A DNA stretch of 45,700 nucleotides from assembly GCA_027450185.1 (NCBI GenBank), contig DAIDKF010000006.1, forward strand, positions 70,795-116,494, read 5' to 3'. Positions 5,901-29,722 of this stretch are shown here, piece by piece. This DNA comes from Granulicella sp. (lineage in GTDB: Bacteria > Acidobacteriota > Terriglobia > Terriglobales > Acidobacteriaceae). Under the pieces are notes generated by a model. It did no database searches. It was not told the origin of the DNA and worked only from the letters and a program-made list of their open reading frames with translations. The translations under genes were made by a program, and so were the position numbers. Every line of letters begins with the position of its first letter. The stretch's first letter is position 1.

Positions 5901-8252
5901 CTACGCCAGCACGGCAACCACCTCGAAACGCCGCTCTCCACCCGGGTGCACGATCACGGCGTCGCGATGCGTTCCACCAAACGATGCAACTCGCCCGTTC
6001 ACCGTTGCACTGCGCAGCGTGCGTCCCTGGGGCACCCTGAAGCTGACGTGAAGCTCCTCCGGAAGCTCTCCTCGACCGGGAAGCTCAACCGTAGCGACCA
6101 GTGCACTCGCATCACGATGCGCAAGGCGATAGCTCACCCGCCCCCAGCGCGTGGGTGCCCCGGTAACCCCAATCGGCCGTCCACCCACAATCCACTCGCG
6201 CGGGATCGCTCGTCCAAAGTGCAGGTGGTTCGCGTCGAATTCCTCAAAAACCAGCATCCACCGCACCAGCAGCGGAATCGTCTGTTGCGCGGGGATACAA
6301 AACAACGCGCCGCCGCCGTTGATGCCAGACACCTCACCGGCGGTCCAACTGCCGCGCGAGTGATCGTGATAGCGATGCGCATACAGAAACAGGATGTACT
6401 CCTCAACCCGGTTCAGTCGCAGCAGCGTGTGCGCATATCCGTACGAGATAAAGCCGAGGATTGCTCTGCCATACGGGTTCGCTCGCTCAACGTTTGCAAC
6501 AACCCCCATCGTCGTAGCCCCATACGCGCGCATGCAGTCGATCACGGCGTTTGCGTCTGCTTCGGGCAGCACATCGGGATGCAGCATCTCGGTATAGCAT
6601 CGGTGCGCCCATCCCTGCTCGCTCGGATGCTCCTTTGCAATCGCATCGCGGAACATGATCTTGACTCCCGGCATCTGTGTCACATACGGTGGCGTGCGGT
6701 CGTGCCACGTGTTGGCCTGCACGCTGCGTACAAGAGCCGCCTCCAGCAGCTCGCTGCGGCGCGACCAATCCGCCACGAGCTGCGCGCTCTCCGCCGGTTT
6801 CAACATCTTCCATGTGCCCGCAATCGCTCGCCAGCCGCGCACCGCAAACGCACTATTCGCAAAGTAAGGCTTGTTCCAAATGGATGGATCCGGCATCAGG
6901 CATGAGTCAGACTCGCACCATCCGTGTAGCAAGCCATAACCGGGATCGCTTGCTGGCAACTTCAGGCTCTCATCGTGCAGTTCTGCCAGTAGCCGGGCCG
7001 TCGCTTCAATCTTCTCCTGATGCTTCAACACCAATTTGTGGTCGCCCGTGAGCTGCGCATAGCGCGACACAAGAAAGAGCGTAAGCCCGAACTGTGCCGT
7101 CTCAGGCCCGCGCATGTTGACCATTCCAAGCGTGTCGGTAAAGCTCGTGAAGTAGTTGTCGAACACATCGTGTGCCTGGTCAAACCGCCCGCACTCCATA
7201 TTGGCATACAGCGACATCGTAAAAATATCCTGGAAGCCGTCGTACTCTGATCCGTAGTAGTCGCGATCAACCGCTCCATACTTCGGATAGTCGCCGCCTG
7301 GGCGCACCATCAACTCCTTCACAAACGCATACCGAACCATGTCGGTCCAGCTTGCATCCGGCAAAGTGATCGGCACGAGATCGCTCGTCTGCCGTTCCCA
7401 GTACTCTGCGAACTCCAGCAGCCCCCGATAAAAATCCTCCGCCTTCGGCTCCTGCCTCCGCCGCGTATAGCTCGGATAGCTGTATCCGTACTGCACGCTC
7501 GAAATCATCCCATTACGAATCCGCGCCGTCCGGTGCCATGTCTGCACAATGAAGCGGTCGTGAGCCATCACATCGCCGAAGACGACGATCTCGAGATACG
7601 TATCCTCTCCGTCCGGAAGCACCTTGCGGACCGCGGGCATCCATCCTCCAACCAGGCCTTCATGGCGTTGATTGGCCATCTGCAGCGTAAGCTCTTTCAC
7701 ATACTGCTGCGGATGGTACGTCCTCGTATTTCCGGCGGGAAACACGGGCATCGTATCGCTGCATTCGCGCGTCCCGACGAAGGTGTTCCATCCGGGCCTG
7801 AACTCCGGCCGGTGCTCGCCGCCGTGGTCGGAGTTCATCGGCGGCGCGGCACGTCGAACATCCGCCTCTGCAGGATCGCCATTGGCCAGCAGCTTGTCCG
7901 CGAGCAGATCCGCATCCGCCATGCCAATCGCTTTTATATCGAGCCCAAGATGCTGCGGACCTTCCTCTGCGAAGGTTGCCTCCGCCGTCTTGCGCAGCAC
8001 CCGCGCCTTCCCGTCCGACGCGGCGAAGGTGAGCACGCCATCTCGCACCCGCAGGTCCTCATACACCGTCCATGTCTCATCTCTGTGCTGAAACGTCGCC
8101 AGCTTCGTATGCCCCTCGACCGATGCCTCCGCAACCGGCATGAGGCCTGAAGACACAGGCAGTTGTCTCGCAGCTCCCGCCCGTGCTGCCAGCGTGTGCA
8201 GCGCTGCGGTGCTTGCGGTAACGCTCTTGAGAAAGTCGCGTCTATCCATCAT
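5901..8252 (-). CDS. Tat-exported protein, probable alpha/alpha-toroid glycosidase
   Basis: A 783-residue exported protein of unassigned family. The N-terminus MMDRRDFLKSVTAST has the Tat signature (RRDFLK) before a weakly hydrophobic stretch, with cleavage near ARAGAA. Residues about 30-270 look like a beta-rich domain. From about 290 there are repeated helical segments with aromatic and acidic clusters such as DRDYYGSEYDGFQDIFT, GWCESDSC and GYGLLHGW, followed by a small beta domain at the end. This order (beta domain, helical toroid, beta tail) is that of six-hairpin glycosidases, but no catalytic pair can be named from sequence alone. It lies 16 nt behind the DUF885 gene with a GGAGG site in the gap, so the two are one operon. 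The neighbourhood suggests action on plant glycoprotein glycans; this is inference. Confidence 0.7.
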   Translation of the reverse strand: MMDRRDFLKSVTASTAALHTLAARAGAARQLPVSSGLMPVAEASVEGHTKLATFQHRDETWTVYEDLRVRDGVLTFAASDGKARVLRKTAEATFAEEGPQHLGLDIKAIGMADADLLADKLLANGDPAEADVRRAAPPMNSDHGGEHRPEFRPGWNTFVGTRECSDTMPVFPAGNTRTYHPQQYVKELTLQMANQRHEGLVGGWMPAVRKVLPDGEDTYLEIVVFGDVMAHDRFIVQTWHRTARIRNGMISSVQYGYSYPSYTRRRQEPKAEDFYRGLLEFAEYWERQTSDLVPITLPDASWTDMVRYAFVKELMVRPGGDYPKYGAVDRDYYGSEYDGFQDIFTMSLYANMECGRFDQAHDVFDNYFTSFTDTLGMVNMRGPETAQFGLTLFLVSRYAQLTGDHKLVLKHQEKIEATARLLAELHDESLKLPASDPGYGLLHGWCESDSCLMPDPSIWNKPYFANSAFAVRGWRAIAGTWKMLKPAESAQLVADWSRRSELLEAALVRSVQANTWHDRTPPYVTQMPGVKIMFRDAIAKEHPSEQGWAHRCYTEMLHPDVLPEADANAVIDCMRAYGATTMGVVANVERANPYGRAILGFISYGYAHTLLRLNRVEEYILFLYAHRYHDHSRGSWTAGEVSGINGGGALFCIPAQQTIPLLVRWMLVFEEFDANHLHFGRAIPREWIVGGRPIGVTGAPTRWGRVSYRLAHRDASALVATVELPGRGELPEELHVSFRVPQGRTLRSATVNGRVASFGGTHRDAVIVHPGGERRFEVVAVLA

Positions 8253-8268
8253 CAGAGGCCTCCATGCG

Positions 8269-10065
8269 CTAAGGATGTGTGGGGTGATCGCCGTAGAACT
8301 TCCACGAAGTTGTAACGTCTGGCGTCAGTGCGCTGTCTTCCATGTCCGCTCGCAACAGCTCAATCGGCATCGGTCCTTCGTGCAGAATCTTGTCGTGGAA
8401 CTGGCGGTTCGTCATCTTGTGCGAGTCCACGAGTTCGTGATGCAGCTCGCGGAACTGCAACGCGCCCATCAGATATGCACTCTGATACAGCGGCCCGACA
8501 GAGCCATCAAACGAGCGCCGCACCTCGGCAAGATCGTTCTCCGAGTCGAAACCAACATTGTCGATGAGATACTGCACGCACTGTTGCGGTGTCCATCGCC
8601 CCAGGTGAAAGTTCATCGTAAAGATGACCCGCGCCGAGCGGTGCATCCGCCATACCAGCGCGCCCACGCGCTCCTCCGGCGTCTTATCGAAGCCCATCTG
8701 ATAGAACAGCATCTCCCACCAGAACGCGTTGCCCTCGCCCCAGAACGGTGTATCGAAGCGGCGGCGATAAGGCCTGTAGCGTGCGTTCATATAGAACTGT
8801 AAAAAATGCCCCGGAATCATCTCGTGGAACGCCGTCGCCCGCGCGAACGGAATGTTGTTGCCGCGCATGCTCATCTCGCGCTGGTCGTACGTCATCGTAT
8901 CTGTTGGAAAGGACACGCTGATCTCGTCGCCGCCGGTAAAGAACGGATTCACCAACTGGCGCTGCGGCGTCATCATGATCATCGTCCACGTCTCGTCTGC
9001 AAGCGGCGGCACGGTTACAAGATCGTTGTTCACCGCAAAGTCACGGCCCTCAAGCACCAGCTTGCGAATGAGCTCTGGCTGCTCGCCAGGCTGCACGTGC
9101 ATCTCCTTCACCTTCTCCACCGCTGCATGCCAGTTGTCGCCGTATCCCATCTCGTGCGACGCTTTGAGCATCTCCTTCAGGCACCAGTCATACTCCGTCT
9201 GCGCAATCGCTATCAGCTCCTCCGGCGTGTACGGGATCATATCGTCGGATAGCTCATCCATCAGCGCCTGTCGTCCCACCGGATCGCCTATGATCGTTGT
9301 CTTATTGTCTGGCTTGATGCCGATCAGCTTCTCCTTCAGGAAGTTGCTGTAGTCCTCAAGCGCTTTGTTTGCGGTGTTGTACGGCATCCCAACCCACCAG
9401 GTAAACTTCGGATCGTAACCGTTGTACTGGCCAAACCAATGACTCAGCGCCCGCTGAAACTCGCGTGTCGCCTGCACCGCGCGGTTGGCCACCACCGGAT
9501 CAATCTTCGCTCCGGCCGTCGCCGTGCCATCGGTCCCCGCATGAGAATGATCAGGATCGAACTCCTTCCGCGCGGCGTCAATCTGTTTCACCATCGCATT
9601 CAAAAGTTCCGCGTCTTTCTCCGCATCGGGCCGCTGCATCAGGCGCTCCTTCTCCAGGAATGCTTCTATGGTTGCGGAGAAGGGAAGCAGCGGCTGCATC
9701 TGCGCCCTCTGCTGCTTCTCAATCGCCATCCGGTGCTGGTTCGCGATCAGCTCGTGCTTCAGCAGCAGGTAGTCGATCTGGTCCTCATGCGAGAGCGCAT
9801 CGAAGTCCAGCGTCTTCAGCATCGCAAGCTCATCGCTGTAGAAGCGTGCAAAACGCGCCGCGCGCGCCGTGGAGATCCGCAGCGGATACACGCGGTCAAG
9901 CGACATTTCATCCTGCGTAAAGTTCTCGATGATTGCGGGCATGCGCGCCTCGGGCCCTGTATCCGTTTTGCGAGCCGCCGTCGCCGCTGTACCCGCAACG
10001 CAGGTCAGGCTTGTGCCGGCAGCCAGCACCGAAAGCAGTTTGACCGTTCGATAGATGATTCGCAT
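8269..10065 (-). CDS. DUF885 family exported hydrolase (metallopeptidase-like)
   Basis: About 598 residues from the ATG at 10065, chosen because MRIIYRTVKLLSVLAAG starts a signal peptide and GAGGGG lies 9 nt upstream; an earlier in-frame ATG (10098) overlaps the presumed operator. The DUF885 hallmark is AFHEMIPGHFLQ (His414, Glu415, His420), a zinc-type HExxxxH arrangement seen across the family. DUF885 proteins are common in acidobacteria; some resemble carboxypeptidases, though few are characterised. It heads the operon with the Tat-exported protein and is transcribed divergently from the S9 peptidase. In this setting a role in cutting peptides released from the glycoprotein backbone is plausible but not shown by the sequence. 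Confidence 0.88.
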   Translation of the reverse strand: MRIIYRTVKLLSVLAAGTSLTCVAGTAATAARKTDTGPEARMPAIIENFTQDEMSLDRVYPLRISTARAARFARFYSDELAMLKTLDFDALSHEDQIDYLLLKHELIANQHRMAIEKQQRAQMQPLLPFSATIEAFLEKERLMQRPDAEKDAELLNAMVKQIDAARKEFDPDHSHAGTDGTATAGAKIDPVVANRAVQATREFQRALSHWFGQYNGYDPKFTWWVGMPYNTANKALEDYSNFLKEKLIGIKPDNKTTIIGDPVGRQALMDELSDDMIPYTPEELIAIAQTEYDWCLKEMLKASHEMGYGDNWHAAVEKVKEMHVQPGEQPELIRKLVLEGRDFAVNNDLVTVPPLADETWTMIMMTPQRQLVNPFFTGGDEISVSFPTDTMTYDQREMSMRGNNIPFARATAFHEMIPGHFLQFYMNARYRPYRRRFDTPFWGEGNAFWWEMLFYQMGFDKTPEERVGALVWRMHRSARVIFTMNFHLGRWTPQQCVQYLIDNVGFDSENDLAEVRRSFDGSVGPLYQSAYLMGALQFRELHHELVDSHKMTNRQFHDKILHEGPMPIELLRADMEDSALTPDVTTSWKFYGDHPTHP

Positions 10066-10094
10066 GAAGTAGTACCCCTCAGGACGCCAGATTT

Positions 10095-10112
10095 GCATAC
10101 AATTATGTATAC
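10095..10112. promoter_or_regulatory. Candidate GntR operator between DUF885 and S9 genes
   Basis: The string GCATACAATTATGTATAC has dyad symmetry: ATACA (10097-10101), a four-base spacer, TGTAT (10106-10110). It lies in the 94-bp divergent gap and resembles sites at 13652, 22829 and 24517. AT-rich FadR-subfamily GntR operators are of this general kind. Part of it (TATACT) could also be a -10 element. Confidence 0.45.
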
Positions 10113-10159
10113 TTATGCCTCAGTTGTAAATCGAATTCGCCTGGAGCCGACCCTCTCCC

Positions 10160-12754
10160 ATGAAGACCTCATCCGCCGTCTGGTTGTCGATTGGAGCTAT
10201 CTGCCTGCTGTCCATCCCCTCCCTCAACGCCCAGGGAACGCTTGCAGACTATCAACGGGCACACGATCTGCAGGACAAGGCATTCGGCCTTGTCGTCAAT
10301 GTTCCGGGTCCCGCGCACTGGATCGGCAACGAGCATCGTTTCTGGTATGCGAAGACCGTCAAAGGTGGAAGCGAATTCGTTCTGGTTGACGCGGACGCAG
10401 CCACAAAAAAGCCGGCCTTCGATCAGGAAAAGCTGGCCGCTGCAATCTCCAGGGCGACCAGTCACACGTATACAGCGCTCACCCTCCCATTCGCGCCGCC
10501 ACGCATGCGCCCTGGTGCACGACCTCCTGCTGAAGCCAACGGAAAGACCGCGCCCCTAAAGTTCCTCGACAACGAACAGAGCCTATCGTTCGGTCTGGAT
10601 GATTCTCTTTTCATCTGCAAGCTGTCTGACTACACCTGCGCCAGAACTGGTCCCATTCCGAGCGAAGGGCGCCGCGACCGCAACTTCTCGCCGGAAGATC
10701 TCACTCAGCTAAGTCCTGAGGTCGCCACCGAGTTCAACGGCGGCGATCCGGCAAACGGTCTTGAGTTTCACTCACCCGCTCCGCAAGCCACCGGAGACGA
10801 TGACGACTCACCGGAGTTCGATCGCCGCCGCCAGCCTCCCTGCGCAGCCGCTCCCGAGCAGCCGGATAGGCAACCGCCCGCGGATCGCGATGACCATCCC
10901 GGCGTAGGTTCTCGAATTCTCGACCAGCAACCGGAACAGCCGCAGTCCACCTGCGCATCCTTCGATGGGCAATACAAAGCATTCATTCAAAACTTCAATG
11001 TCTATCTCAAGCCCAAGGGCGCCGCGCCCGCCTTCCCGCTCAGCTTCGATGGAACGGAGAACGACGCGTACACCTTCGAGACGCTCGCCTGGTCTCCGGA
11101 CTCGAAGAAGCTCGTCGCCTACCAGGTACGCCCAGGGTTCGATCGTCTGGTAACTTACGTCGAGTCTTCGCCCGCGGATCAAATCCAGCCCAAGACGACT
11201 ACCATCCACTACGCGAAGCCTGGCGACCCCGTGGACATTGCGCAACCCGTCCTCTTTGACGTCGCGACGAAACACGGTACGGTCATCAACAATAGCCTGT
11301 TTCCCAATCCCTTCTCTCTCACTGAACCAAAGTGGTGGAAGGACAGTCGTGGGTTCACCTTTGAATACAACCAGCGCGGACACCAAGCCTACTCGGTCAT
11401 TGAGGTGAACGCAAACACCAGCGCTCCACGCGCGCTCATCGCCGAAACCACCAGGACCTTCTTCTACTACAACGATCTCGGCCCCGGCCTCTCCGCCGGC
11501 CGTCGTTACCGCCATGATGTCGACGACGGCAAGGAGATCATCTGGGCGTCAGAACGCGACGGCTGGGAGCATCTCTACCTCTACGACGGCGTGACCGGTG
11601 CCGTGAAAAACCAGATCACCAAAGGTGACTGGCTGGTTCGCAACGTCGATTTCGTCGACGACAAAAACCGCCAGATCTGGTTTGAAGCAGGCGGCAGTAT
11701 CCCAGGGCAGGACCCCTACTTCACCCAGTACTACCGCATCAACTTCGACGGCACAGGTCTGACACGTCTCACCGACGCAGACGGGATGCACACCGCCAGC
11801 TTCTCGCGCGATCATGCCTTTTACGTTGACAGTTGGCAGCGCGTCGATCTTGCGCCCGTTGCACAGTTGCGCCGCACCTCCGACTCCAAAGTCATCCTCG
11901 ATCTCGATAAGGGAGACACCACCGCACTGCTGGCCGCGGGCTTCCGTTTCCCAGAGGTCTTCGTCGCCAGGGGCCGCGATGGCAAAACCGATATCTGGGG
12001 CACCATCACGCGTCCACTCCACTTCGACCCAAAGAAAAAATACCCCGTCATTGAGAACATCTACGCCGGTCCGCAAGGTTCGTTTGTTCCCAAGACCTTC
12101 AGTCCAGTCGCACCGGACCAGGCTCTCGCGGAGCTTGGTTTCATCGTCGTGCACATCGACGGCATGGGCACCAGCAATCGTTCCAAGGCCTTTCACGACG
12201 TCGCCTTCAAGAACCTCGCGGATGCCGGCTTCCCCGACCGCATCCTTTGGCACAAGGCTGTGGCTGCAAAATATCCCTACTACGACATCTCGCGCGTAGG
12301 GATCTTCGGCACCTCTGCCGGCGGTCAGAGCGCAATGGGCGCGCTCCTGTTCCACCCGGAGTTCTACAAGGTCTCCGTCAGCAACAGCGGTTGTCAGGAT
12401 AACCGCATGGACAAGATGTGGTGGAACGAGCAGTGGATGAGCTGGCCCGTTGGCCCGCAGTATGCCGCATCTTCTAACGTCGATAACGCCTACCGCCTGC
12501 AAGGTAAAGTGCTGCTCATCATCGGCGAGATGGATACCAACGTCGATCCCTCTTCTTCTCTGCAGGTCGTCAACGCCTTCGTCAAAGCGCACAAGCACTT
12601 CGACATGCTGTACATCCCGGGCCAGAATCACGGCGTCGGTATCCTCGCGAACGAACACTACCGCGACGACTACTTCGTTCGCAATCTTCTCAACGTGGAG
12701 CCGCCGGACTGGAACCATGTCGCGCTCAGGAAGGACGAGCCTCCGGCAAAATAG
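10160..12754 (+). CDS. Secreted S9 family (DPP IV-like) serine peptidase
   Basis: A prolyl-type oligopeptidase-family serine peptidase of 864 residues. A signal peptide ([18 protein letters not shown], cleavage near LNAQ) is followed by a DPP IV-like beta-propeller (about 30-600) and a C-terminal alpha/beta-hydrolase. The triad is visible: Ser719 in GTSAGG, Asp792 in GEMDTNVDP, His824 in GQNHGVG. A Pro/Gln/Asp-rich, probably disordered insert occupies about residues 205-265; the frame stays open through it. S9 enzymes of this clan often cut after Pro or Ala, which fits a proline/hydroxyproline-rich backbone, but cleavage specificity cannot be read here. It is divergent from the DUF885 operon, with a candidate operator in the gap, and ends at a strong hairpin shared with the regulator gene. 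Confidence 0.9.
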
Positions 12755-12772
12755 CGCAGCTCCCCCGCAAAC

Positions 12773-13603: not shown

Positions 13604-13667
13604 CTTAATGTACCGCGTTTCTTTGGAAGATGCGGCGATTTTCGTGCGCCAACAATGTATCCAAAAT
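13604..13667. promoter_or_regulatory. Candidate operators in gntR / epimerase divergent gap
   Basis: Two short related sites lie in the gap: TTAATGTACCG (13604-13614) and ACAATGTATCCAAAAT (13652-13667). Both share AATGTA with the sites at 22829 and 24517. Placement between a GntR gene and its likely target operon is typical of autoregulation. The match is short, so support is moderate at best. Confidence 0.35.
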
Positions 13668-13692
13668 CGTCGACAATGAGGTATTATTGGTT

Positions 13693-14643: not shown

Positions 14644-14644
14644 G

Positions 14645-15778: not shown

Positions 15779-16016
15779 GATGCTCTCTCTGCGGATCAAC
15801 GGCGCGACTGTTCGCGTGGCTAATGGAACCTCGGTGTCCGCCGCAATGTTGATCGCCGGTCAGCCAACGCGCATCTCCGTCACCGGAGAACCGCGTGGGC
15901 CTGTCTGCGGCATGGGCATCTGTTTTGAGTGCCGCGCCATCGTCAACGGAATGCCGCATCAACGCACCTGCCAACTCCTCTGCGAGGAAGGCATGACGGT
16001 GGAGACGAATCGATGA
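15771..16016 (+). CDS. Small [2Fe-2S] ferredoxin-like dehydrogenase subunit
   Basis: An 81-residue protein with a plant-type ferredoxin cysteine pattern: Cys46, Cys51, Cys54 and Cys67 in PVCGMGICFEC and RTC. It is the electron-transfer subunit of the three-part D-hydroxyproline dehydrogenase and lies between the FAD subunits, as in HcnA/HypA-like systems. The start ATG at 15771 lies inside the end of the previous gene with an AGGAG site about 13-17 nt upstream. The stop overlaps the next ATG (ATGA at 16013-16016). The gene is easily missed because a longer overlapping frame starts far upstream. Confidence 0.88.
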   Translation: MPEMLSLRINGATVRVANGTSVSAAMLIAGQPTRISVTGEPRGPVCGMGICFECRAIVNGMPHQRTCQLLCEEGMTVETNR

Positions 16017-19985: not shown

Positions 19986-22814
19986 TTACTTCTTTGTCTC
20001 CGCCAGTGCCACCGTCGTCTCGCCGCTGCTCAGTGGAATCACCGTCGCTCCAGCATCTCGCACAGCCTTCGTCGCTACATCCCAGGTCACATCGCCACGC
20101 ATCAACTGCGTCTCGGTGAGTCGCAGCCGCGCCGTCGACACGAACTCGCTGGCAGGGGCCAGATGCAGTGTGACCGTGCCCTTGTGCGTGTTGTAATCGG
20201 CCGAAACAATTTTGCCCGCATCCAGTGTGATCCACAGCCCCAGCGGCGCAACGAAGAGTCGATCGCGCGAGCTGTCGAGCACAGTGATGTGCACAACGCC
20301 GCGCCTGTCCTCAACATTGCCTCCGAAGCACAGCCACCCCATCGTGTCATCATGTGTCACAAACGTCCCCGTGTTCATCGCCTGCCCGAAGAAGTTTGGT
20401 CCATAGTCGCCCGTGTACGGGTCGTACATCATCAGGTCAGGGAAGGAGTGGAACGCCGCGGACGCGAAGCCCTTCTCATCGATGTTCGCCAGCGGCCCCA
20501 TCACCCCGCCGTATCCCACGCGCAGCAGGTAAAGATCGTCAGGGTGCAACCGGTACTCCGCAAGCAGCGGAATTGCATTGATGCCCGAGCCATAGTGGTG
20601 CAGTTGGCGCTCGAGCCGAGCGTACTTCTCCTTCCCCCCGTAGATGAAGTCCCAGTACCGGCGCGCGCTCCCGTTATACCCCCAGCTTGGAATCGTCGGG
20701 TCGTACGCCAGAATTGCATTCAAGGTCACCTCAGCCTTCACGTCGTCGTGGAAGTAGCGCGTCCAGTCATACACCTCTTCCTGTCCCGTCGAGTCCCATG
20801 GCATCTCGCTTCCAAAGGGATACGCCTCTGTCTTCCACACATCGGCGCGCGCACGCATCAAGGCTTCCAGCTTCGCGGCCTTGTCCGTCCATCCTTCTGC
20901 CTTCAGGTCGTCGAGCAGCCGCACGAACACCGTTCCTTCCATCTGGCCAAAGCGCGTGTAGTACGGTGCCTGGGTGCACATCGCCAGAGTCGTCTCGTAC
21001 GCCTGGTTCAGATACCACTGCCAATCGTGGTTCGTCACCAGCCCGTGGGTGTTGCGCGCCGTCCGGTACAACGACCAGTACGCCGCCACCACATGAGGAT
21101 AGTTGTAGGAGCGTCCCACATCATCCGCGCCCTCCTTGTTCCAACTCGTCCAACTCGTCCAGTTCAACTTCGGATCATAGGAGAAGCCGGGCACCAGCGC
21201 AGGCTGATAGAAGAACAGGCTCTTATGCACACCATACTTGTGTTCGCCTTCGCTGTTCTGCAGATGTCCCCAAAGCACGCCATCCACAAAGCTCTCCAGC
21301 TTCGCGATCTCTGCCTTGTCGGGTTCGAGGTACTCCTTCATCGAAGCCGCCAGCCACGATCCCGCTCCCGCCTCATCGCTCAGCCCCGCAATCCACACTC
21401 GCGAGTCCTGCGTCACCTGCTTTCCTGCCTCATTGTCATAGCTGATGATCGATGGTCCGCGATGAAACGGATCATGCGGATCATCGAACCACTGCTGTTG
21501 AAACAGGAAGCGTCCCATATCCGCAATCGCCTCCGTCTCCGGCTTGATCGTGCGGTAGCCAATGCTCTGCACCATCCCATCGGCGTAGGTGATCACCAGC
21601 CGAAAACGTCCCCACTGTCTGCCGCGCAGCGTATACGCGTGCAGTCCATGGCTATTCATCCCGTCATCATGAATCTCTACCGCGGCTGCCGGTTCGCCCG
21701 CAATCGATCGCACCGGCTTGTCATAGCGCAGAAAAAGTCGGGCCTCGATATCCTGCGGCAGCACATAGCCGGGTACGCCCACAGCAACTGGCCGCTTATG
21801 TTCCGCAAGCGTCGCTTCAATCTGCCGCAGGTTTGGCGCAACCAGGAACCGCACGCCATAGGTCACACTCTTTCCCGGCGCCAGCGTGGCGGAACTCGCC
21901 GGGTTCCACTCCTGCACTCCCCTCCACTCATTCTCTGTATACCCTTCCGAGTGCACCATCCAGTCGAATGAGCCTTCAAACGTAGTGCCGCGCGGCGTCG
22001 GGTCGTTATCCAGCAGACCCTCGCCCGTCTGGCGGTTGCGATGATCCAGAATCGGCTTCCACGCCTCAAACGGTGTGTGTCCATCCGGTACCACCAGCAA
22101 CACCGGTCCCGTCCCACTCAACTGCGACACCTGCACATAGCCTGCATCTTCCCCAATGTACGGATCGTAAAAGGAGCAGATGCGATACGCCTGGTCCAGC
22201 GTGCGTCCGTTCAGAATGTTGTTGAACACCATCGGAATCCCGAGTCCACCAATCTCCACCGCCGAGCCAGACGTATTCGTGAGCGTAAAACGCAGCGCAA
22301 GCGTACCTCCCTCACTCGACCACGTCCGCACAATCTTCAGCGGCGTCCCACCCGGCAGGCTGGAGCTCACATCGCCCGCAAACTGTTTGGCGTCTGCTGC
22401 AAGCACCGTCACCGGGTTGCGCCGGTACGCGGTCGAAACATCCGTCCATCCACTCGCGCCCGCAGCGCGATACCGCACATCAAGATCGCCCAGGTGATAA
22501 AACGTGTTGGCCGAGCGCTGCTTCAGCAGATCGCCCGGGGTGTAGTCCAGCGTGGCATCGCTGCTGGGCGTCAGCGATGCCGCCGTGCCTGAATAGCGCA
22601 GCAATTCCACCTTCAGATCAGGTGTGCTCAACGAAATCCTTCCACCGTCCAGCATCGGACCCGGCGGCAGCTCACCCGGTCTGTGTCTCTGCTGTCCTTG
22701 TGCCGTGCTCCCCAGTCCAACCCAAAGCAGAAGCGCGCAGATGCTGAAACCAAGCGGCCAAACACGGTAAGAAGCCAGATGTACTTCTTGAATCACAAGG
22801 AGACGATTACGCAT
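19986..22814 (-). CDS. Large secreted DUF5695-like protein, putative glycosidase
   Basis: About 942 residues from the ATG at 22814, favoured because AGGTGAGG lies 5 nt upstream; a GTG at 22826 is four codons longer. The signal/anchor helix is FSICALLLWVGLG. The N-terminal half (about 50-400) is beta-rich, with GGLGIPMVFNN. The second half is helical with many Trp/Tyr and acidic residues (WTSWTSWNKEGADD, YNYPHVVAAYWSLY, EVYDWTRYFHDD, SWGYNGSARRYWDF). I recognise it as DUF5695-like, a family without an established activity as far as I know. The fold order suggests an alpha/alpha-barrel carbohydrate-active enzyme. It is divergent from the GH43-like gene, with TGTATACA in the gap, and so probably coregulated with the locus. 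Confidence 0.75.
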   Translation of the reverse strand: MRNRLLVIQEVHLASYRVWPLGFSICALLLWVGLGSTAQGQQRHRPGELPPGPMLDGGRISLSTPDLKVELLRYSGTAASLTPSSDATLDYTPGDLLKQRSANTFYHLGDLDVRYRAAGASGWTDVSTAYRRNPVTVLAADAKQFAGDVSSSLPGGTPLKIVRTWSSEGGTLALRFTLTNTSGSAVEIGGLGIPMVFNNILNGRTLDQAYRICSFYDPYIGEDAGYVQVSQLSGTGPVLLVVPDGHTPFEAWKPILDHRNRQTGEGLLDNDPTPRGTTFEGSFDWMVHSEGYTENEWRGVQEWNPASSATLAPGKSVTYGVRFLVAPNLRQIEATLAEHKRPVAVGVPGYVLPQDIEARLFLRYDKPVRSIAGEPAAAVEIHDDGMNSHGLHAYTLRGRQWGRFRLVITYADGMVQSIGYRTIKPETEAIADMGRFLFQQQWFDDPHDPFHRGPSIISYDNEAGKQVTQDSRVWIAGLSDEAGAGSWLAASMKEYLEPDKAEIAKLESFVDGVLWGHLQNSEGEHKYGVHKSLFFYQPALVPGFSYDPKLNWTSWTSWNKEGADDVGRSYNYPHVVAAYWSLYRTARNTHGLVTNHDWQWYLNQAYETTLAMCTQAPYYTRFGQMEGTVFVRLLDDLKAEGWTDKAAKLEALMRARADVWKTEAYPFGSEMPWDSTGQEEVYDWTRYFHDDVKAEVTLNAILAYDPTIPSWGYNGSARRYWDFIYGGKEKYARLERQLHHYGSGINAIPLLAEYRLHPDDLYLLRVGYGGVMGPLANIDEKGFASAAFHSFPDLMMYDPYTGDYGPNFFGQAMNTGTFVTHDDTMGWLCFGGNVEDRRGVVHITVLDSSRDRLFVAPLGLWITLDAGKIVSADYNTHKGTVTLHLAPASEFVSTARLRLTETQLMRGDVTWDVATKAVRDAGATVIPLSSGETTVALAETKK

Positions 22815-22828: not shown

Positions 22829-22841
22829 AATGTATACAATA
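22829..22841. promoter_or_regulatory. Candidate GntR operator, perfect TGTATACA palindrome
   Basis: AATGTATACAATA contains the perfect 8-bp palindrome TGTATACA (22831-22838). It lies just upstream of the DUF5695-like start and would overlap an ATG at 22830 if that were the GH43 start. This is the best-formed of the related sites in the locus. Confidence 0.5.
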
Positions 22842-22895
22842 AAGTATGTGAAATTGGGTATCCTTAGCCCCGCACTCTCCTCTTCGGGAGGCTTC

Positions 22896-24512
22896 TTGCA
22901 CCATCTCCATCGCACCCTGCTCTACGCATCCGCTGTCCTTGCTCTGACGCTCCCCGCGTTCACGCAACAACCGCTCACCATCCACAGCGCCGGAAACCCC
23001 ATCGTCTCCGACGGTTCGTTCTACTCCGCCGATCCCGCGCCCATCGTCGTTGGCGACACCCTCTACATCCTCACCGGCCGCGACCAGGCCCCGCCCAACG
23101 TCAACGACTTCATCATGCCGGAGTGGGGCCTTCTCGCCACCAAGAACGTCGCCTCGCAGCAGTGGAAGCTCTATCCGGAGTTCCTTCGTCCCGAGCAGGT
23201 CTTCGCCTGGGCCACGCCCGGCCGCGCCTACGCCGGCCAGATCGTACAGGGGACCGACCATCGCTTCTATCTCTACGCGCCCGTAGAACAGGCCAACTCT
23301 CCCAACCGCGACCCCTTCGCCATCGGCGTAGCCGTCTCTGACAGCGTCCTCGGCCCTTGGAGAGACGCGCACCCCTCCGGCCCCGTCATCTCGCAGTCCG
23401 TGCCCGAACCGGATCGCATCCAGAACATCGACCCCACCGTCCTGGTCGATCGCGACGGCCGCGTCTATATCTATTGGGGAACCTTCGGCCGTCTGCGCGG
23501 CATGGAACTCCAGCCCGACATGGTCACGCCCAAAGGTCACGAGTTCACCGTCGACACGCTGACCGGTTTCTTTGAGGCATCCCGCATCTTCCGCCGCAAC
23601 GACACCTACTATCTGCTCTACGCCGACAACCAGGCTGGTCCGGACTCACCCTGCACCGCGGCCGTCTATCACGCCTGCATCGCCTACGGAACTGCGCCTA
23701 CGCCCCTCGGTCCCTGGACCTACCGCGGCGTCATCCTCGACGTCGTCTCCTCCACCACCTCACACCCCGGTGTCGCTCGCTTCAAGGGAAAGTGGTATCT
23801 CGTCTATCACACCGCCGACGCCAGGGGCGGTGGTCACTTCCGTCGCAGCCTCGCCATCGACCGTATGCAGTGGGACGACACCGTCTCACCCGCGCGCATC
23901 CTCAAAGTCACCCAGACCCACGAGCCATCTCCCCCACCTCCACCCAGCCGCAACATCGCGCCCGCCGCGCTCGCATCGGCCTCCAACCAGCCCATCCCTC
24001 TGCAGTATTGGATCAAGGCTCTCAACGACGGCATCGTTCGCCCCAACCCCCTGCCTCCGGACATGTGGGCTAGCTGGACCCCGCATAATCCGCCAACGCA
24101 ATGGATTCAGTACCAGTGGGCCCGGCCCGTCACCCTCAACGAGTCGCGCATCTACTTCTGGGGCGACCACCCCGCTGGAGCCTCCGAAGGCGTCGCACCG
24201 CCCGCCGCCTGGCATCTTGAGTACTGGGACGGCGGCAAGTGGGTCGCCATCGCGGGCCGCCATCCCTACCCCACCCAGGCGGATTCCTTCAACGATGTCA
24301 CCTTCGCACCCGTCACCACCCGTTGTCTGCGCGCCATCTTCGACGCCTCCGGTTCCGATGGTCACCATGCGGCCGTCGCAGTAGAAGAGTGGGAGGCCCT
24401 TGCGTCTCAGCCCGTTGCGCGCGAGAATCTTCCATCCCTCACACCCTCTGGCGGAGCGCCAGCCGGATGTGGAACCGGCCGGCCAGTTGACAGCGTGGGC
24501 GCAGGTCGGTAA
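22896..24512 (+). CDS. GH43-like glycosidase with C-terminal discoidin-like domain
   Basis: Inverting five-bladed beta-propeller glycosidase, 538 residues. The start is a TTG at 22896, chosen because GGGAGG lies 4 nt upstream and a clean signal peptide follows (MHHLHRTLLYASAVLALTLP, cleavage near AFTQ). The ATG at 22830 lies within the TGTATACA site and gives an odd N-terminus. The GH43 triad is visible: Asp46 (SADPAPIV), Asp179 (NIDPTVLVD), Glu227 (FFEASRIF). After a Pro-rich linker (PSPPPPPS), residues about 350-510 look like an F5/8C-type carbohydrate-binding domain. GH43 enzymes are mostly arabinofuranosidases, xylosidases or exo-galactanases; which applies cannot be settled here. Its neighbour GH127 makes an arabinose-related role the first guess. 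Confidence 0.85.
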   Translation: MHHLHRTLLYASAVLALTLPAFTQQPLTIHSAGNPIVSDGSFYSADPAPIVVGDTLYILTGRDQAPPNVNDFIMPEWGLLATKNVASQQWKLYPEFLRPEQVFAWATPGRAYAGQIVQGTDHRFYLYAPVEQANSPNRDPFAIGVAVSDSVLGPWRDAHPSGPVISQSVPEPDRIQNIDPTVLVDRDGRVYIYWGTFGRLRGMELQPDMVTPKGHEFTVDTLTGFFEASRIFRRNDTYYLLYADNQAGPDSPCTAAVYHACIAYGTAPTPLGPWTYRGVILDVVSSTTSHPGVARFKGKWYLVYHTADARGGGHFRRSLAIDRMQWDDTVSPARILKVTQTHEPSPPPPPSRNIAPAALASASNQPIPLQYWIKALNDGIVRPNPLPPDMWASWTPHNPPTQWIQYQWARPVTLNESRIYFWGDHPAGASEGVAPPAAWHLEYWDGGKWVAIAGRHPYPTQADSFNDVTFAPVTTRCLRAIFDASGSDGHHAAVAVEEWEALASQPVARENLPSLTPSGGAPAGCGTGRPVDSVGAGR

Positions 24513-24516
24513 TCGT

Positions 24517-24538
24517 AATGTATTCGAAATTGTATGCA
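24517..24538. promoter_or_regulatory. Candidate GntR operator before GH127 operon
   Basis: AATGTATTCGAAATTGTATGCA holds two half-sites, AATGTAT and ATTGTAT, around TTCGAA. It lies in the 76-bp gap before the GH127 start and resembles the sites at 22829 and 10095. Confidence 0.4.
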
Positions 24539-24588
24539 TCGACCGCTGGCAAAGCCATCGACACATCACCGGAAAAGGGGCACCACCA

Positions 24589-26580
24589 ATGCATCTGAGA
24601 CTGACACGCAGGCACTTTCTGGGCGCCGCCGCCGCTGCGGGCACCACGGCTCTTCTCCCCGCCCACTCGAACGCAGCCGCTCGCGTCGCCAAAGACAACA
24701 CCACCTCCAGCTCCTCGGACACTGCGGTTGAAACGCTCGTTCACTCACCTGTCGCGAAGGTGCAGTGGAAGGCCGTGCCCTTCTCCATGGCCGAAGTCCG
24801 TCTGCTTCCCGGCTTCTGGAAAGAGATGATGGAGCTGGATCGCAGCTATCTCTATTCGTTGCCCAACGATCGCCTCGCCTACAACTTCCGCGTCACCGCC
24901 GGCCTCCCGACCGATGCCGATCCGCTTGGTGGCTGGGAGGCGCCCGACTGCGAGCTGCGCGGCCATTACGTCGGCCACTATCTCTCCTCGTGTGCGCTGC
25001 TGCACGCCAGCACCGGCGACATGCCCATCAAGGCCAAGGCCGACGACCTTGTCGCCATCCTCGCCGAGTGCCAGGCCAAGGACGGCTACCTCAGCGCCTA
25101 TCCCGTGACCTTCTTCGGCAAGTTGCGCAACCACGAACACATCTGGGCGCCCTTCTACACCTACCACAAGATCCTCGCCGGCATGATCGACATGTACGAG
25201 CACACCGGCAACAAGCAGGCGCTCGACGTCGCGCTCAAGATGGGTGACTGGGCCGACGCCTACAGCCGCCCCATCCCCGGGGACGAATGGCAGCGCATGC
25301 TTCTCGTCGAGCAGGGCGGCATGAACGAGGCTGCCTTCAACCTCTACGCCATCAGCGGCAACGTCAAGTACCGCGACCTTGCCTACCGTTTCGAGCACAA
25401 GAAGATCTTCGATCCCCTCGCCGCGAACGAGGATAAGCTCGACGGCAATCACGCCAACACCAACATCCCCAAGGTCATCGGCGCCATCCGCGGCTACGAG
25501 CTCACCGGCGATCCACGTTACCTCGCCATCGCGCAAAACTTCTATCGCATCATCACCGAGCACCACACCTACTGCACCGGCGGCACGAGCAACGGAGAGT
25601 TCTGGCACAAGCCCGACGCCATCGCATCGCAACTCGGCCCCGCGGCCGAGGAGTGCTGCTGCTCCTACAATATGATGAAGCTCTCCCGCCACCTCTTCGG
25701 CCAGAGCCCCGACGCCAGGCACTTCGACTACTATGAGCGCATGTTGTACAACGTCCGCTACGGTACCCAGGACCGCAACGGCATGCTCATGTACTACGTC
25801 TCCTTGAAGCCCGGCCTCTACAAGACCTTCGGCACACAGTTCGACTCCTTCTGGTGCTGCACCGGCACCGGCTCGGAGGAGTACGCAAAGCTTAACGACT
25901 CCATCTACTTCCACGACGCCGACTCCGTCTTCGTCAACCTCTTTATCCCCTCCAAACTCGATTGGAAGGAACGCGGGCTCCAGCTTCGCCAGACCACAAA
26001 CTTCCCCCACGAAGAGCGCACCACCCTCACCGTCGATGCCGCGCCGTCCAAAACAACCGCACTCAAAATCCGCGTTCCCTACTGGGCTACGAAGGGAGTA
26101 ACGGTAGCCATCAACGGCCAGCCCGTCACGGTAGAGGCCACGCCCACAACCTACCTCACGCTGCACCACGACTGGAAGGCCGGCGACGTCATCACCGTAG
26201 ACATGCCCATGCCCCTCCACATCGATCAGGCGCCCGACGACAAGCAGGTGCAGGCCGCCATGTACGGCCCTCTCGTGCTCGCCGTTCGCCTTGGATACGA
26301 AGACCTCACCAACGCGATGATCTACGGTGACAACGGTCCCTGGGGCTCTGACGACGGCTACCCCATGCCCACCGTCCATCTCCGTCAAGCCCCCGGCAAG
26401 ACCGGCGACGAAGCCAGGACCGGTGACGACGCCATCTGGTTCGAGCGCGCCGAAGCCAGCCACAGATTTCCACTCAGCTTCCGCACCAAGGGTCGCGGCC
26501 CCATCCACACGCTCGTTCCGCTCAACCAGATCCTCGACGAGCGCTACTCCGTCTACGTCCGCAACGAAGGCGTGGCCTAG
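24589..26580 (+). CDS. GH127-type beta-L-arabinofuranosidase, Tat-exported
   Basis: Former DUF1680 protein of 663 residues. The ATG at 24589 has AAGGGG 9 nt upstream and starts a Tat-like signal (LTRRHFLGAAAAAG). The family opening LLPGFWKEMMELDRSYL and the GWEAPDCELRGHYVGHYL segment are intact. The zinc/thiolate site is conserved: Glu355 and Cys357 in EECCCSYNM, and the CC pair Cys423-Cys424 in FWCCTGTG. By analogy with HypBA1, the Glu and three Cys bind zinc and one of the paired Cys is the nucleophile. HypBA1 of Bifidobacterium removes beta-L-arabinofuranose from hydroxyproline-linked arabinosides of extensin. GH146 is close in sequence and cannot be excluded. The permease starts 3 nt after the stop. 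Confidence 0.92.
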   Translation: MHLRLTRRHFLGAAAAAGTTALLPAHSNAAARVAKDNTTSSSSDTAVETLVHSPVAKVQWKAVPFSMAEVRLLPGFWKEMMELDRSYLYSLPNDRLAYNFRVTAGLPTDADPLGGWEAPDCELRGHYVGHYLSSCALLHASTGDMPIKAKADDLVAILAECQAKDGYLSAYPVTFFGKLRNHEHIWAPFYTYHKILAGMIDMYEHTGNKQALDVALKMGDWADAYSRPIPGDEWQRMLLVEQGGMNEAAFNLYAISGNVKYRDLAYRFEHKKIFDPLAANEDKLDGNHANTNIPKVIGAIRGYELTGDPRYLAIAQNFYRIITEHHTYCTGGTSNGEFWHKPDAIASQLGPAAEECCCSYNMMKLSRHLFGQSPDARHFDYYERMLYNVRYGTQDRNGMLMYYVSLKPGLYKTFGTQFDSFWCCTGTGSEEYAKLNDSIYFHDADSVFVNLFIPSKLDWKERGLQLRQTTNFPHEERTTLTVDAAPSKTTALKIRVPYWATKGVTVAINGQPVTVEATPTTYLTLHHDWKAGDVITVDMPMPLHIDQAPDDKQVQAAMYGPLVLAVRLGYEDLTNAMIYGDNGPWGSDDGYPMPTVHLRQAPGKTGDEARTGDDAIWFERAEASHRFPLSFRTKGRGPIHTLVPLNQILDERYSVYVRNEGVA

Positions 26581-26583
26581 CGC

Positions 26584-28077
26584 ATGGCCCAGACCGAATT
26601 CCGCAAGGCGCTTGGCCTCTTCGATTCGGTGATGATCGTCGCTGGCATCATGGTCGGCTCCGGCATCTTCATCGTCAGCGCGGAGATCTCGCGCCAGGTC
26701 GGTTCATCCGGCTGGCTGCTTGTCGCATGGGTCATCACCGGCTTCCTCACCGTCTTCGGCGCGCTCAGCTACGGCGAGCTTGCCGCCATGATGCCCAGTG
26801 CCGGCGGCATGTACGTCTACCTCCGCGAAGCCTTCTCGCCGCTGCTCGGCTTTCTCTACGGCTGGACGCTGATGACCGTCATCCAGACCGGCTCCATCGC
26901 CGCCGTTGCCATCGCCTTCGCGCGCTTCAGCGGCGTGCTCTTTCCCTCCATCAGCGAAAGCCGTTATCTCATCGCGCCCATTCGCTTCCTTCCCGGCTAC
27001 GCCGTCTCACTCTCCACCACGCAGTGCCTCGCTCTCGCCGTCATCCTCGTCACCTGTCTGGTCAACATCGGTGGCGTGCGTTGGGGCAAGCTCGTGCAAA
27101 ACGTCTTCACCTTAGCCAAGCTCGTCGGCATGGTCCTGCTGCTCGGCCTCGGCGCCTACGCTTTCGTGCGCGATCCCTCCGTCCTTCATCGCAACTTCGC
27201 GCACCCCTGGCATCCGCAGAATGTCTCGATGATCGGCAGCCTCAGCGCCATGACCGGCGCGGGCATGATCGTCGTTCTCTGCGTCTCGCAAACCGGCTCT
27301 CTCTTCTCCGCAGACTCCTGGCACGACATCACCTTCGTCGCCGGCGAGGTTCGCAACCCGCAGCGCAACCTGCCCCTTGCTCTCGGCCTCGGCACCTCCA
27401 TGGTCATCGTCCTCTATCTCCTCTGTAACCTCTGCTATCTCGCCGTCATTCCCATGCACTCCATCCAGACTGCGGCCGATGACCGTGTCGCCACGCTGGT
27501 CGTCAACACCGTCCTTCCCGGCATCGGCAGAATCGCAATGGCGTGCCTCATCATGGTCTCCACCTTCGGCACCGTCAATGCGCTCACGCTGGCCGGTGGT
27601 CGTGCCTGTTACGCCATGGCGCAGGACGGTCTCTTCTTTCGCCGCGCCGGATCGCTCAACAAAGAGGGCGTGCCCGGCTGGGCCCTCGCTCTGCAATGTC
27701 TCTGGGCTTTCCTCCTCGTGCTCCCCCGCACCTACAGCACCACCACCCACACCTACGGCAACGTCTACAGCAACCTCCTCGACTACGTCATCTCCGCGGC
27801 GCTCATCTTTTACATCCTCACCGTTGCCGGACTCTTCCGCCTGCGCCGCACCAGACCCCAGGCCCTCCGGCCCTACCGTTGCTGGGGTTACCCGTGGCTC
27901 CCCGCCATCTATATCGTTGGCGCCTCGTTTGTTCTGGTCGTCTTGTTCGCATGGCGCACCGCCACCACCTGGCCAGGCCTCATCATCGTCCTCAGCGGAG
28001 TACCCGTCTACGCACTGCTTCGCCGGAGCGCGGCCCCAGCCGAAGCATCCTCCCGCGCCGCATCGCTCTCCAACTGA
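26584..28077 (+). CDS. APC-superfamily amino-acid permease
   Basis: Inner-membrane amino-acid transporter of 497 residues with about 12-13 hydrophobic segments. The first helix carries the APC substrate-binding motif GIMVGSGIFIVSAEI, and GALSYGELAAMMPSAGGMYVYL is the second signature, as in LAT/YhdG-like permeases. The gene starts 3 nt after the GH127 stop and is followed 46 nt later by alpha-ketoglutarate semialdehyde dehydrogenase, so the three are very likely cotranscribed. That placement makes hydroxyproline, proline or a small Hyp-containing product the best substrate guess; specificity is not readable from the sequence. Confidence 0.9.
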   Translation: MAQTEFRKALGLFDSVMIVAGIMVGSGIFIVSAEISRQVGSSGWLLVAWVITGFLTVFGALSYGELAAMMPSAGGMYVYLREAFSPLLGFLYGWTLMTVIQTGSIAAVAIAFARFSGVLFPSISESRYLIAPIRFLPGYAVSLSTTQCLALAVILVTCLVNIGGVRWGKLVQNVFTLAKLVGMVLLLGLGAYAFVRDPSVLHRNFAHPWHPQNVSMIGSLSAMTGAGMIVVLCVSQTGSLFSADSWHDITFVAGEVRNPQRNLPLALGLGTSMVIVLYLLCNLCYLAVIPMHSIQTAADDRVATLVVNTVLPGIGRIAMACLIMVSTFGTVNALTLAGGRACYAMAQDGLFFRRAGSLNKEGVPGWALALQCLWAFLLVLPRTYSTTTHTYGNVYSNLLDYVISAALIFYILTVAGLFRLRRTRPQALRPYRCWGYPWLPAIYIVGASFVLVVLFAWRTATTWPGLIIVLSGVPVYALLRRSAAPAEASSRAASLSN

Positions 28078-28123
28078 CACCCACAACCAACTCGGCCCGC
28101 ATCAACTGCTAAGGAGTACGAAC

Positions 28124-29722
28124 GTGCAACTCACCGGCGAACAACTCATCGGCGCAAACCGCCACCGCGGCACCGCTGGCGCCCTGAACGCAACCAACCC
28201 CACCACCGGCGAAACCCTCCCGCCCACCTTCGGCGCCGGTACCCCTGCCGACGTCAACACCGCCTGCACCCTTGCCGCCGAAGCCTTCGATACCTTCCGC
28301 GCCGTCTCCCTTGAGCAGCGCGCTCTCTTTCTCGAAGCCATCGCCGATGGCATCGTTGCATTGGGCGACACGCTCATCGATCGCGTCATGGCAGAGTCCG
28401 GTCTCCCGCGCCCACGCCTGGAAGGCGAGCGTGGCCGCACCGCCGGGCAGTTGCGTCTCTTCGCATCCATCGTGCGCTCCGGCCGCTTCCTCTCTCCCAC
28501 CTTCGACACCGCACTGCCCGATCGCACCCCTCCACGTCCCGACCTCCGCTCGCAGATGATTCCGCTAGGACCAGTCGCCGTCTTCGGTGCCAGCAACTTC
28601 CCGCTCGCCTTCTCCGTCGCCGGTGGCGACACCGCCGCCGCACTCGCCGCCGGCTGTCCCGTCATCGTCAAAGCCCACCCCCTCCACCTCGGCGCCTCGG
28701 AGCTTGTTGGCCACGTCATCCAGCAGGCCGTAGCCGCCGCTCGCCTTCCCCAGGGCGTCTTCTCTCTCCTCATCGATGACGCCGCCAACACCGTCAGCAC
28801 CGCACTCGTTCAACATCCCGCGATCGCGGCCGTAGCCTTCACCGGTTCGCGCCGCGTCGGCCGCATCCTCGTCGACCTCGCCGCCCATCGCCCCATTCCC
28901 ATCCCCGTCTTCGCCGAGATGAGCGGCATCAACCCTGTCTTCCTTCTCCCCTCTGCTCTCCATCAGCGCGCCGACACCATCGCCCAGGCTCTCATCGACT
29001 CCGTCACCCTCGGCGTCGGCCAGTTCTGCACCAAACCCGGCATCGTCATCGGCATCGCCGGTCCAGCCTTCGACCGCTTCCGTGCCGCCGCCATCGCCAG
29101 CCTCGAAGCCCGGTCCGCAGCCACCATGCTCGCGCCCGGCATACAACACGCCTATACCCGCGGCCTCGACCACTGGCAGGCAGACACCGACGTGCAACTG
29201 CTCTCCGTCGGATCTCCCGCCGCACCCAACTCCTGTGGCGGCCAGCCCCGCCTCTACGCCACCACAGCCAGGCACTTCCTCCAAACCCCCGCACTGCTTG
29301 AAGAAGTCTTCGGTCCAACCGCTCTACTCATCGAATGCAGCGACATCGAAGAGCTGGTAACCATCGCAAACCACCTCGACGGCCAGCTCACTGCAACGCT
29401 TCAAATGGACCAACCCGACACCGCCACCGCGCGCCGTCTCCTCCCCATCCTCGAACGCAAAGCCGGCCGCATCCTCGTTAACGGCTTTCCTACCGGAGTA
29501 GAAGTCAGCTACGCAATGGTGCACGGCGGCCCCTTCCCAGCCACCTCCGACAGCCGCTCGACCTCCGTTGGCGCCATGGCCATCAACCGTTTCCTGCGCC
29601 CAGTTTGTTATCAAAATCTTCCTGCGGCCCTGCTTCCGCCGCCACTGCAGGACGAAAACCCACTCCGCCTGACCCGCTTCATCGACGGTCACGACGTCCC
29701 TCAGAACCTGTCGGAAGACTAA
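28124..29722 (+). CDS. Alpha-ketoglutarate semialdehyde dehydrogenase
   Basis: NAD(P)-dependent aldehyde dehydrogenase of 532 residues, oxidising 2,5-dioxopentanoate to alpha-ketoglutarate: the fourth and last step of hydroxyproline use. The GTG start at 28124 has AAGGAG 7 nt upstream; the open frame extends far upstream but overlaps the permease. Catalytic Cys302 (GQFCTKPG) and general-base Glu265 (FAEMSG) are present. The GASNFPLAFSVAGGDTAAALAAGCPVIVKAHP segment style is that of the semialdehyde dehydrogenase subfamily rather than general betaine/aldehyde enzymes. These enzymes also serve oxidative arabinose, xylose and glucarate routes, so a dual role with released L-arabinose is possible. 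No terminator is obvious directly behind it. Confidence 0.9.
   Translation: MQLTGEQLIGANRHRGTAGALNATNPTTGETLPPTFGAGTPADVNTACTLAAEAFDTFRAVSLEQRALFLEAIADGIVALGDTLIDRVMAESGLPRPRLEGERGRTAGQLRLFASIVRSGRFLSPTFDTALPDRTPPRPDLRSQMIPLGPVAVFGASNFPLAFSVAGGDTAAALAAGCPVIVKAHPLHLGASELVGHVIQQAVAAARLPQGVFSLLIDDAANTVSTALVQHPAIAAVAFTGSRRVGRILVDLAAHRPIPIPVFAEMSGINPVFLLPSALHQRADTIAQALIDSVTLGVGQFCTKPGIVIGIAGPAFDRFRAAAIASLEARSAATMLAPGIQHAYTRGLDHWQADTDVQLLSVGSPAAPNSCGGQPRLYATTARHFLQTPALLEEVFGPTALLIECSDIEELVTIANHLDGQLTATLQMDQPDTATARRLLPILERKAGRILVNGFPTGVEVSYAMVHGGPFPATSDSRSTSVGAMAINRFLRPVCYQNLPAALLPPPLQDENPLRLTRFIDGHDVPQNLSED

Follow-up and report, generated by a model that had tools for sequence, protein, structure and literature searches.

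The window analysed here, a 45.7-kb stretch of DNA from a Granulicella metagenome-assembled genome (MAG G000; 2.17 Mb, 54% complete), carries between positions 5.9 and 29.7 kb a 24-kb block in which the full trans-4-hydroxyproline pathway is encoded together with exported proteins directed at glycans and peptides. We propose that this block is probably one hydroxyproline-responsive regulon for the use of plant hydroxyproline-rich glycoproteins. That these genes act jointly as a single regulated locus, as already put forward in an initial annotation of the window, is argued for by their linkage in relatives and by an operator common to the sugar, peptide and hydroxyproline genes. Judged on sequence, there is good support for a plant hydroxyproline-glycoprotein regulon; the specific substrate is considered separately below.

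Gene content of the locus

The gene classes named in the initial annotation (GH43, GH27, S9, DUF885, an amino-acid permease and the four hydroxyproline steps) were all found at their place in the block. Its list had passed over the DUF5695 gene (19986-22814), the gene of a 783-aa protein and that of a 2Fe-2S subunit; apart from the family name GH127, revised below, the rest of it holds. The features of the locus are the following.

5901-8252, minus strand: 783-aa protein, no Pfam family, twin-arginine translocation (TAT)-type signal by eye
8269-10065, minus strand: DUF885 metallopeptidase-like protein, exported (Pfam, 152 bits)
10092-10114: operator between the divergent DUF885 and dipeptidyl-peptidase-IV (DPP-IV) genes (23.1 bits)
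10160-12754, plus strand: S9 peptidase of DPP-IV type, exported (closest PDB entries: bacterial dipeptidyl aminopeptidases IV)
12824-13561, minus strand: GntR/FCD regulator gene (P0014), divergent from the epimerase gene (domain search)
13655-13677: operator 5' of the epimerase gene (37.9 bits)
13693-14643, plus strand: trans-4-hydroxyproline 2-epimerase (NCBIfam models, two cysteines)
14645-15778, plus strand: D-hydroxyproline dehydrogenase, DAO-type subunit (Pfam, neighbourhoods of relatives)
15780-16016, plus strand: D-hydroxyproline dehydrogenase, 2Fe-2S (Fer2_4) subunit (domain match)
16013-17365, plus strand: D-hydroxyproline dehydrogenase, pyridine-nucleotide oxidoreductase subunit (Pfam)
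17362-18285, plus strand: DHDPS-family pyrroline-4-hydroxy-2-carboxylate deaminase (named by context)
18366-19913, plus strand: GH27 alpha-galactosidase or beta-L-arabinopyranosidase, exported (Pfam, similarity)
19986-22814, minus strand: DUF5695 protein, exported, distantly PL27-lyase-like (Pfam, 1269 bits)
22829-22851: weak operator between the divergent DUF5695 and GH43 genes (14.1 bits)
about 22896-24512, plus strand: GH43 of alpha-L-arabinofuranosidase/xylosidase type, exported (weak C-terminal galactose-binding-like match)
24518-24540: operator 48 bp 5' of the GH146 gene (24.6 bits)
24589-26580, plus strand: GH146-like beta-L-arabinofuranosidase (P0008), TAT-exported by eye (PDB similarity, Glu/3-Cys site)
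26584-28077, plus strand: APC amino-acid permease (family match)
about 28124-29722, plus strand: aldehyde dehydrogenase, alpha-ketoglutarate semialdehyde dehydrogenase by context (below the NCBIfam cut-off)

Sec or TAT signals were recognised by eye in the GH27, GH43, GH146, DUF5695 and 783-aa proteins and in both peptidases, and no signal peptide was visible by eye in the hydroxyproline enzymes. The two top models for the epimerase, ahead by about 200 bits, are NF052296 (409.6 bits, cut-off 450) and NF010577 (410.8 bits, cut-off 442). Both active-site-type cysteines are present in its motifs MCGHGT and SPCGTG, a pair (rather than Cys/Thr) that marks a hydroxyproline epimerase. The three adjoining genes for DAO, 2Fe-2S and pyridine-nucleotide oxidoreductase proteins make up a three-subunit D-hydroxyproline dehydrogenase, and the deaminase and the aldehyde dehydrogenase owe their assigned roles to genomic context.

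Linkage in relatives

Among 397 genomes of the order, the epimerase (E ≤ 1e-40) was present in 138, a GH146 relative (E ≤ 1e-100) in 124 and DUF5695 (E ≤ 1e-100) in 54. The epimerase accompanied DUF5695 in 51 of 54 genomes, compared with 87 of the 343 others (Fisher test, 3e-23), and it was found in 83 of the 124 GH146 genomes (3e-19). Where DUF5695 and the epimerase shared a contig (28 genomes), they lay at most 25 kb apart in 25, a count that leaves out one row, a second fragment in G295, with that genome still counted. Same-contig pairs of GH146 and the epimerase were within 25 kb in 27 of 31 cases, with all 139 GH146 rows used; distances between GH146 and DUF5695 rest on 62 of these rows. 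In G102 and G085, the GH146-DUF5695 pair is on the same contig as the hydroxyproline operon at a distance of 0.48 Mb and 2.3 Mb, respectively.

From the 138 epimerase genomes, 60 neighbourhoods were drawn, 39 from assemblies with at most 60 contigs and 21 picked by hand. The sample was not blind, as some of the hand-picked genomes (for example G243, G230 and G314) had linkages already seen. Genes were predicted with a simple codon-score caller, and Pfam was run on representatives. The DAO and oxidoreductase subunits recurred in 56 and 49 of the 60 neighbourhoods. Beyond the catabolic genes, these contained a TonB-type receptor (OMP_b-brl_4), GH146 and S9 (23 each), DUF5695 (19), APC (18), DUF885 (12), GH27 (11) and GH43 (9), none of which occurred in ten control stretches of 40 kb each. 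At least two of these eight accessory families were present in 26 neighbourhoods, hereafter accessory-rich (25 by the seven families used for the tree). The initial annotation had suggested comparing gene order across relatives, and this comparison supports the joint role: linkage is kept in the pairs above. The order of the accessory genes is shuffled among the 60 neighbourhoods.

A shared operator and its candidate regulator

In relatives, the stretch separating the divergent GntR and epimerase genes retains a sequence like ATGTATCCAAAATNGTCGACAAT. A 23-bp operator matrix was built from 17 of 21 such promoters; the window was held out, and G230 and G143 (incomplete) and G086 (no good seed match) were also left out. 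Over the whole window, the only sites of at least 12 bits were those at 13655 (37.9), 24518 (24.6), 10092 (23.1) and 22829 (14.1). In 200 Markov-1 windows, positions of at least 14 bits averaged 0.085 per window (maximum 2), and none reached 20 bits. The pattern TGTATNCAWWWTNGTMKRCA, with at most two mismatches, had four matches in the 2.17 Mb of the MAG, at three places, all inside the locus. Matches to this pattern fell on the locus contig in 2 of 2 cases in G243, 5 of 6 in G230 and 6 of 8 in G137, and 4 of 5 in G084 were no more than 25 kb from the epimerase; with the pattern reversed, each genome had 0 or 1 match.

For the accessory genes, we considered 15 families that recur near the epimerase and that were picked after the first operator listing. 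Apart from the epimerase sites, 33 of the 43 sites of at least 18 bits in the 60 neighbourhoods stood at starts of these families, which represent 3.3% of the sequence (1.7e-40); with sites of at least 14 bits the count was 51 of 81. The density of sites of at least 18 bits was 2.0 per 100 kb in the neighbourhoods versus 0.2 in the controls (one in 400 kb). Within the accessory-rich group, an accessory operator was found in 14 of the 20 neighbourhoods with an epimerase operator and in none of the 6 without it. As a side observation, neighbourhoods of relatives also contain a GH127-type gene with the GH127 C-terminal domain, an M1 aminopeptidase gene and GH31 genes (L074:2181-5129; L072:2504-4246; L094:1919-3829), and members of these families have an operator upstream in some genomes.

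P0014, whose gene is beside that of the epimerase, combines a GntR winged helix-turn-helix with an FCD domain. Of the 29 neighbourhoods that contain a P0014-like GntR gene, 28 have an epimerase site of at least 20 bits, compared with 5 of the 31 that lack such a gene (6e-11); outside the training set, the corresponding counts were 11 of 12 and 5 of 31 (8e-6). Because the site tracks this gene, P0014 is the candidate binding protein, and the divergent GntR/FCD protein is likely to be the regulator of the operator set. The single regulator claimed in the initial annotation agrees with the shared operator and the co-occurring GntR gene, an agreement read from genome sequence.

A scheme can be drawn from these data in which the substrates, the operator binding, the repression and the effector are what we infer. 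GH43, GH146 and GH27, probably with DUF5695 and the 783-aa protein, would remove arabinose, galactose and similar caps from the hydroxyproline and serine residues, and the exported DPP-IV-type and DUF885 peptidases would cut the bared Pro/Hyp-rich chain. The permease would import amino acids or small products, and the epimerase, the three-subunit dehydrogenase, the deaminase and the aldehyde dehydrogenase would convert hydroxyproline to alpha-ketoglutarate. The divergent GntR/FCD protein would bind the 23-bp operator at four promoters and probably repress them until a hydroxyproline-derived effector arrives.

Evidence against a single regulon

Several results weigh against this proposal. Fewer than two of the eight accessory families were present in 34 of the 60 neighbourhoods. 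Mapping the linked state onto the epimerase tree takes 9 changes, of which well-supported branches force 3; the genomes being related, the linkage p-values given above are overstated, and an independent-pairs test of linkage against the GntR gene was not significant. The operator is also unevenly distributed. All 33 accessory operators belong to 16 genomes, of which 14 are represented in the accessory-rich group of 26 and 2 lie outside it. An accessory operator is lacking in 12 of the 26, including those of G008, G026 and G107, the last of which belongs to the genus group of MAG G000, and in 6 of these 12 the epimerase operator is missing as well. Of the 12 pattern matches in G028, just 4 are on the locus contig. 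Sites of at least 14 bits occur at 3.7 per 100 kb in the neighbourhoods and at 2.0 in the controls, the matrix being unspecific at this level; the site at 22829, with 14.1 bits, is doubtful by score for this reason and was not matched in the search with TGTATNCAWWWTNGTMKRCA. As for the proteins, the epimerase and the aldehyde dehydrogenase score below their NCBIfam cut-offs, GH146, GH43 and GH27 have further known substrates, and neither a TonB receptor nor a SusD family member was found among the 30 window proteins scanned, a subset of the open reading frames.

One way to read these gaps is a chance neighbourhood, with a hydroxyproline operon lying beside a pectin or arabinan degradation cluster. 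Many epimerase neighbourhoods without the accessory set and many accessory sets without the operator would fit this explanation, as would the origin of BT0349, the closest solved relative of the GH146 enzyme, from a rhamnogalacturonan-I locus (PMC10850190). Against it stand the co-occurrence, the proximity and the shared operator, and we regard such a coincidence as improbable.

Collagen offers another source of hydroxyproline: the locus could be a regulon for animal collagen like that of Streptomyces HypR, the glycosidases being neighbours with another job. This explanation we consider very improbable. No M9 collagenase was found among the annotated proteins of the window and of the relatives' representatives. 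The operator also precedes GH146 and, weakly, GH43/DUF5695, for which the known bonds are, to our knowledge, not those of collagen. In favour of this explanation, the GntR/FadR-type HypR of S. coelicolor governs a hydroxyproline operon together with a putative M9 collagenase (PMC6608401).

Glycosidases and the choice of substrate

In the GH127/146 clan, P0008 scores 347 bits to 5opj, 205 to 8k7y and 58 to 3wkw. We take these to be BT0349 (GH146), Bll3HypBA1 (the entry being a beta1,3-L-arabinofuranosidase) and BlHypBA1 (GH127), respectively. The Zn site is kept, with E418-x-C420 and C486-C487 aligning with the E-x-C and CC of 5opj. The Glu/3-Cys site described in the initial annotation is thus present, while its family, given there as GH127, is to be revised: with a far higher score to 5opj than to 3wkw, P0008 is GH146-like by similarity. 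This call covers extensin-type and arabinan-type GH146 enzymes alike. According to PMC10850190, Bll4HypBA1 and XeHypBA1 cleave the arabinose adjoining hydroxyproline, while BT0349 acts on arabinan and Bll3HypBA1 on arabinogalactan-protein.

An AlphaFold model of DUF5695, built from 14 sequences, was poor (predicted local distance difference test, pLDDT, 54). Its best PDB match with Foldseek was the PL27 lyase BACCELL_00875 (5nok/5no8; 3e-15, next protein 1.7e-4), with low TM-scores of 0.2. BACCELL_00875 was the top profile match as well, at a weak hmmsearch E of 0.097, and hhalign against PL27 gave 56% over the matched stretch, a value that is not independent. Searching solved structures with one DUF5695 sequence returned no match. 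The PL27 rhamnose-glucuronate lyases are the closest solved match by fold and profile, with a sequence likeness too low for family assignment, and these matches offer a lead that DUF5695 may be a carbohydrate-active enzyme. In the openly licensed PMC literature, DUF5695 is mentioned by a single paper, which deals with fungal velvet regulators. A diverged second DUF5695 protein (193 bits; L127:3769-6945) was seen in 5 of the 60 epimerase neighbourhoods; in G028 and G314 its gene and a GH43 gene share an operator-bearing promoter region.

The 783-aa protein adjoins GH146/DUF5695 in relatives (8 of 48 contig loci). Its AlphaFold model, from 9 sequences, reached a pLDDT of 53 and had a single fold match below 0.001, the weak one to 5mqo (BT_1003; 3e-4); its sequence had one weak match among solved structures (E 0.024). 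TAT-exported by eye, it is possibly a new alpha/alpha-barrel carbohydrate enzyme.

These enzymes bear on the substrate. Extensin, the one named in the initial annotation, is not established, because GH146 enzymes also act on arabinogalactan-proteins and pectic arabinan and because DUF5695 leans weakly to PL27, a family of arabinogalactan-protein lyases; as the specific substrate, extensin has about an even chance at best. The same regulon could instead serve mainly for arabinogalactan-protein, with its hydroxyproline-linked type II arabinogalactan. DUF5695 would then act on rhamnose-glucuronate-like caps, GH27 on beta-L-arabinopyranose or alpha-galactose, GH43 on alpha-L-arabinofuranose and GH146 on beta-L-arabinofuranose. 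The match of DUF5695 to BACCELL_00875, by fold (3e-15) and by profile (E 0.097), and the activity of the GH146 enzyme Bll3HypBA1 on arabinogalactan-protein (PMC10850190) speak for this substrate, to which we nevertheless give a rather low probability: the DUF5695 model is poor (pLDDT 54), its sequence match is weak (hhalign 56%), and the scan of 30 window proteins turned up no family for the galactan backbone. Moreover, arabinogalactan-proteins are about 90% glycan (PMC7769824), which makes them a poor reason for coupling peptidases and hydroxyproline use.

Extensins and arabinogalactan-proteins belong to the nitrogen-containing material of plant walls, and what is known of their bacterial breakdown mostly concerns the sugars. 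A regulon linking the use of their sugars, protein and hydroxyproline would, if confirmed, show how Acidobacteria of soil and peat gain carbon and nitrogen from them. The operator together with DUF5695 would be a genome marker for the trait, and DUF5695 would gain a testable function. A wider proposal, which we hold at even strength for and against, is that one hydroxyproline-sensing GntR regulator governs deglycosylation, proteolysis, uptake and full hydroxyproline catabolism in Acidobacteriaceae, and that DUF5695, perhaps with the 783-aa family, represents a carbohydrate-active family not yet described, with hydroxyproline-linked glycans as its substrates.

Genes flanking the locus

The locus adjoins a resistance-nodulation-division (RND) efflux set on the minus strand (3-5034; AcrB-type pump, membrane-fusion protein and outer-membrane channel). 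The relative G243 has instead an operator-bearing TonB-type receptor at about the same distance. Genes for another S9 peptidase (42416-44503, minus strand) and for an M1-like protein (35449-37704, plus strand) lie close to ribH-nusB and to the gene of an S12-type ribosomal protein; they are probably outside the locus, as no operator site of at least 12 bits is present there. Searches of the window gave no tRNA and no RNA family that reached the gathering score.

Comparison with known systems

The initial annotation knew of no locus joining sugar removal, proteolysis and hydroxyproline catabolism, which agrees with our searches of the openly licensed PMC literature. None of the matches listed describes a single operator governing glycan removal together with proteolysis and hydroxyproline catabolism, and we found there neither a hydroxyproline epimerase reported together with an arabinofuranosidase nor a report of an acidobacterial hydroxyproline epimerase operon. 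Use of glycoproteins has been claimed for Latescibacteria from GH127 genes (PMC4454575). Bacteroides-type polysaccharide utilisation loci have a SusC/SusD pair, unlike the 30 window proteins scanned.

The HypR regulon of S. coelicolor resembles the window in its GntR/FadR-type regulator, its epimerase, dehydrogenase and deaminase, and its gene for breakdown of a polymer that contains hydroxyproline; it differs in that the polymer enzyme is a putative M9 collagenase encoded elsewhere on the chromosome and in its operator, CTNTGC(A/C)ATGTCAC (PMC6608401). That paper nowhere uses the word stem 'glycosid'. Xanthomonas euvesicatoria, with xehypBA1/BA2/AA, shares GH43 and GH146 for hydroxyproline-linked arabinosides and has a prolyl oligopeptidase gene alongside, there a pseudogene (PMC6085000); XeHypBA1 is called GH127 in that paper and GH146 in PMC10850190. 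Xanthomonas also has GH121, its BA2-AA operon is under HrpX, and the part of its description available mentions no hydroxyproline catabolic genes (PMC6085000). In Bifidobacterium longum, HypBA1/HypBA2/HypAA and Bll3/Bll4HypBA1 likewise direct GH127/GH146 enzymes at hydroxyproline-linked or arabinogalactan-protein glycans, in a system that is sugar-only as described, peptidases and hydroxyproline catabolism not being mentioned in the text available (PMC10850190). What appears to be new in the Granulicella locus is the combination, for which Streptomyces HypR and the arabinosidases of Xanthomonas and Bifidobacterium are partial precedents.

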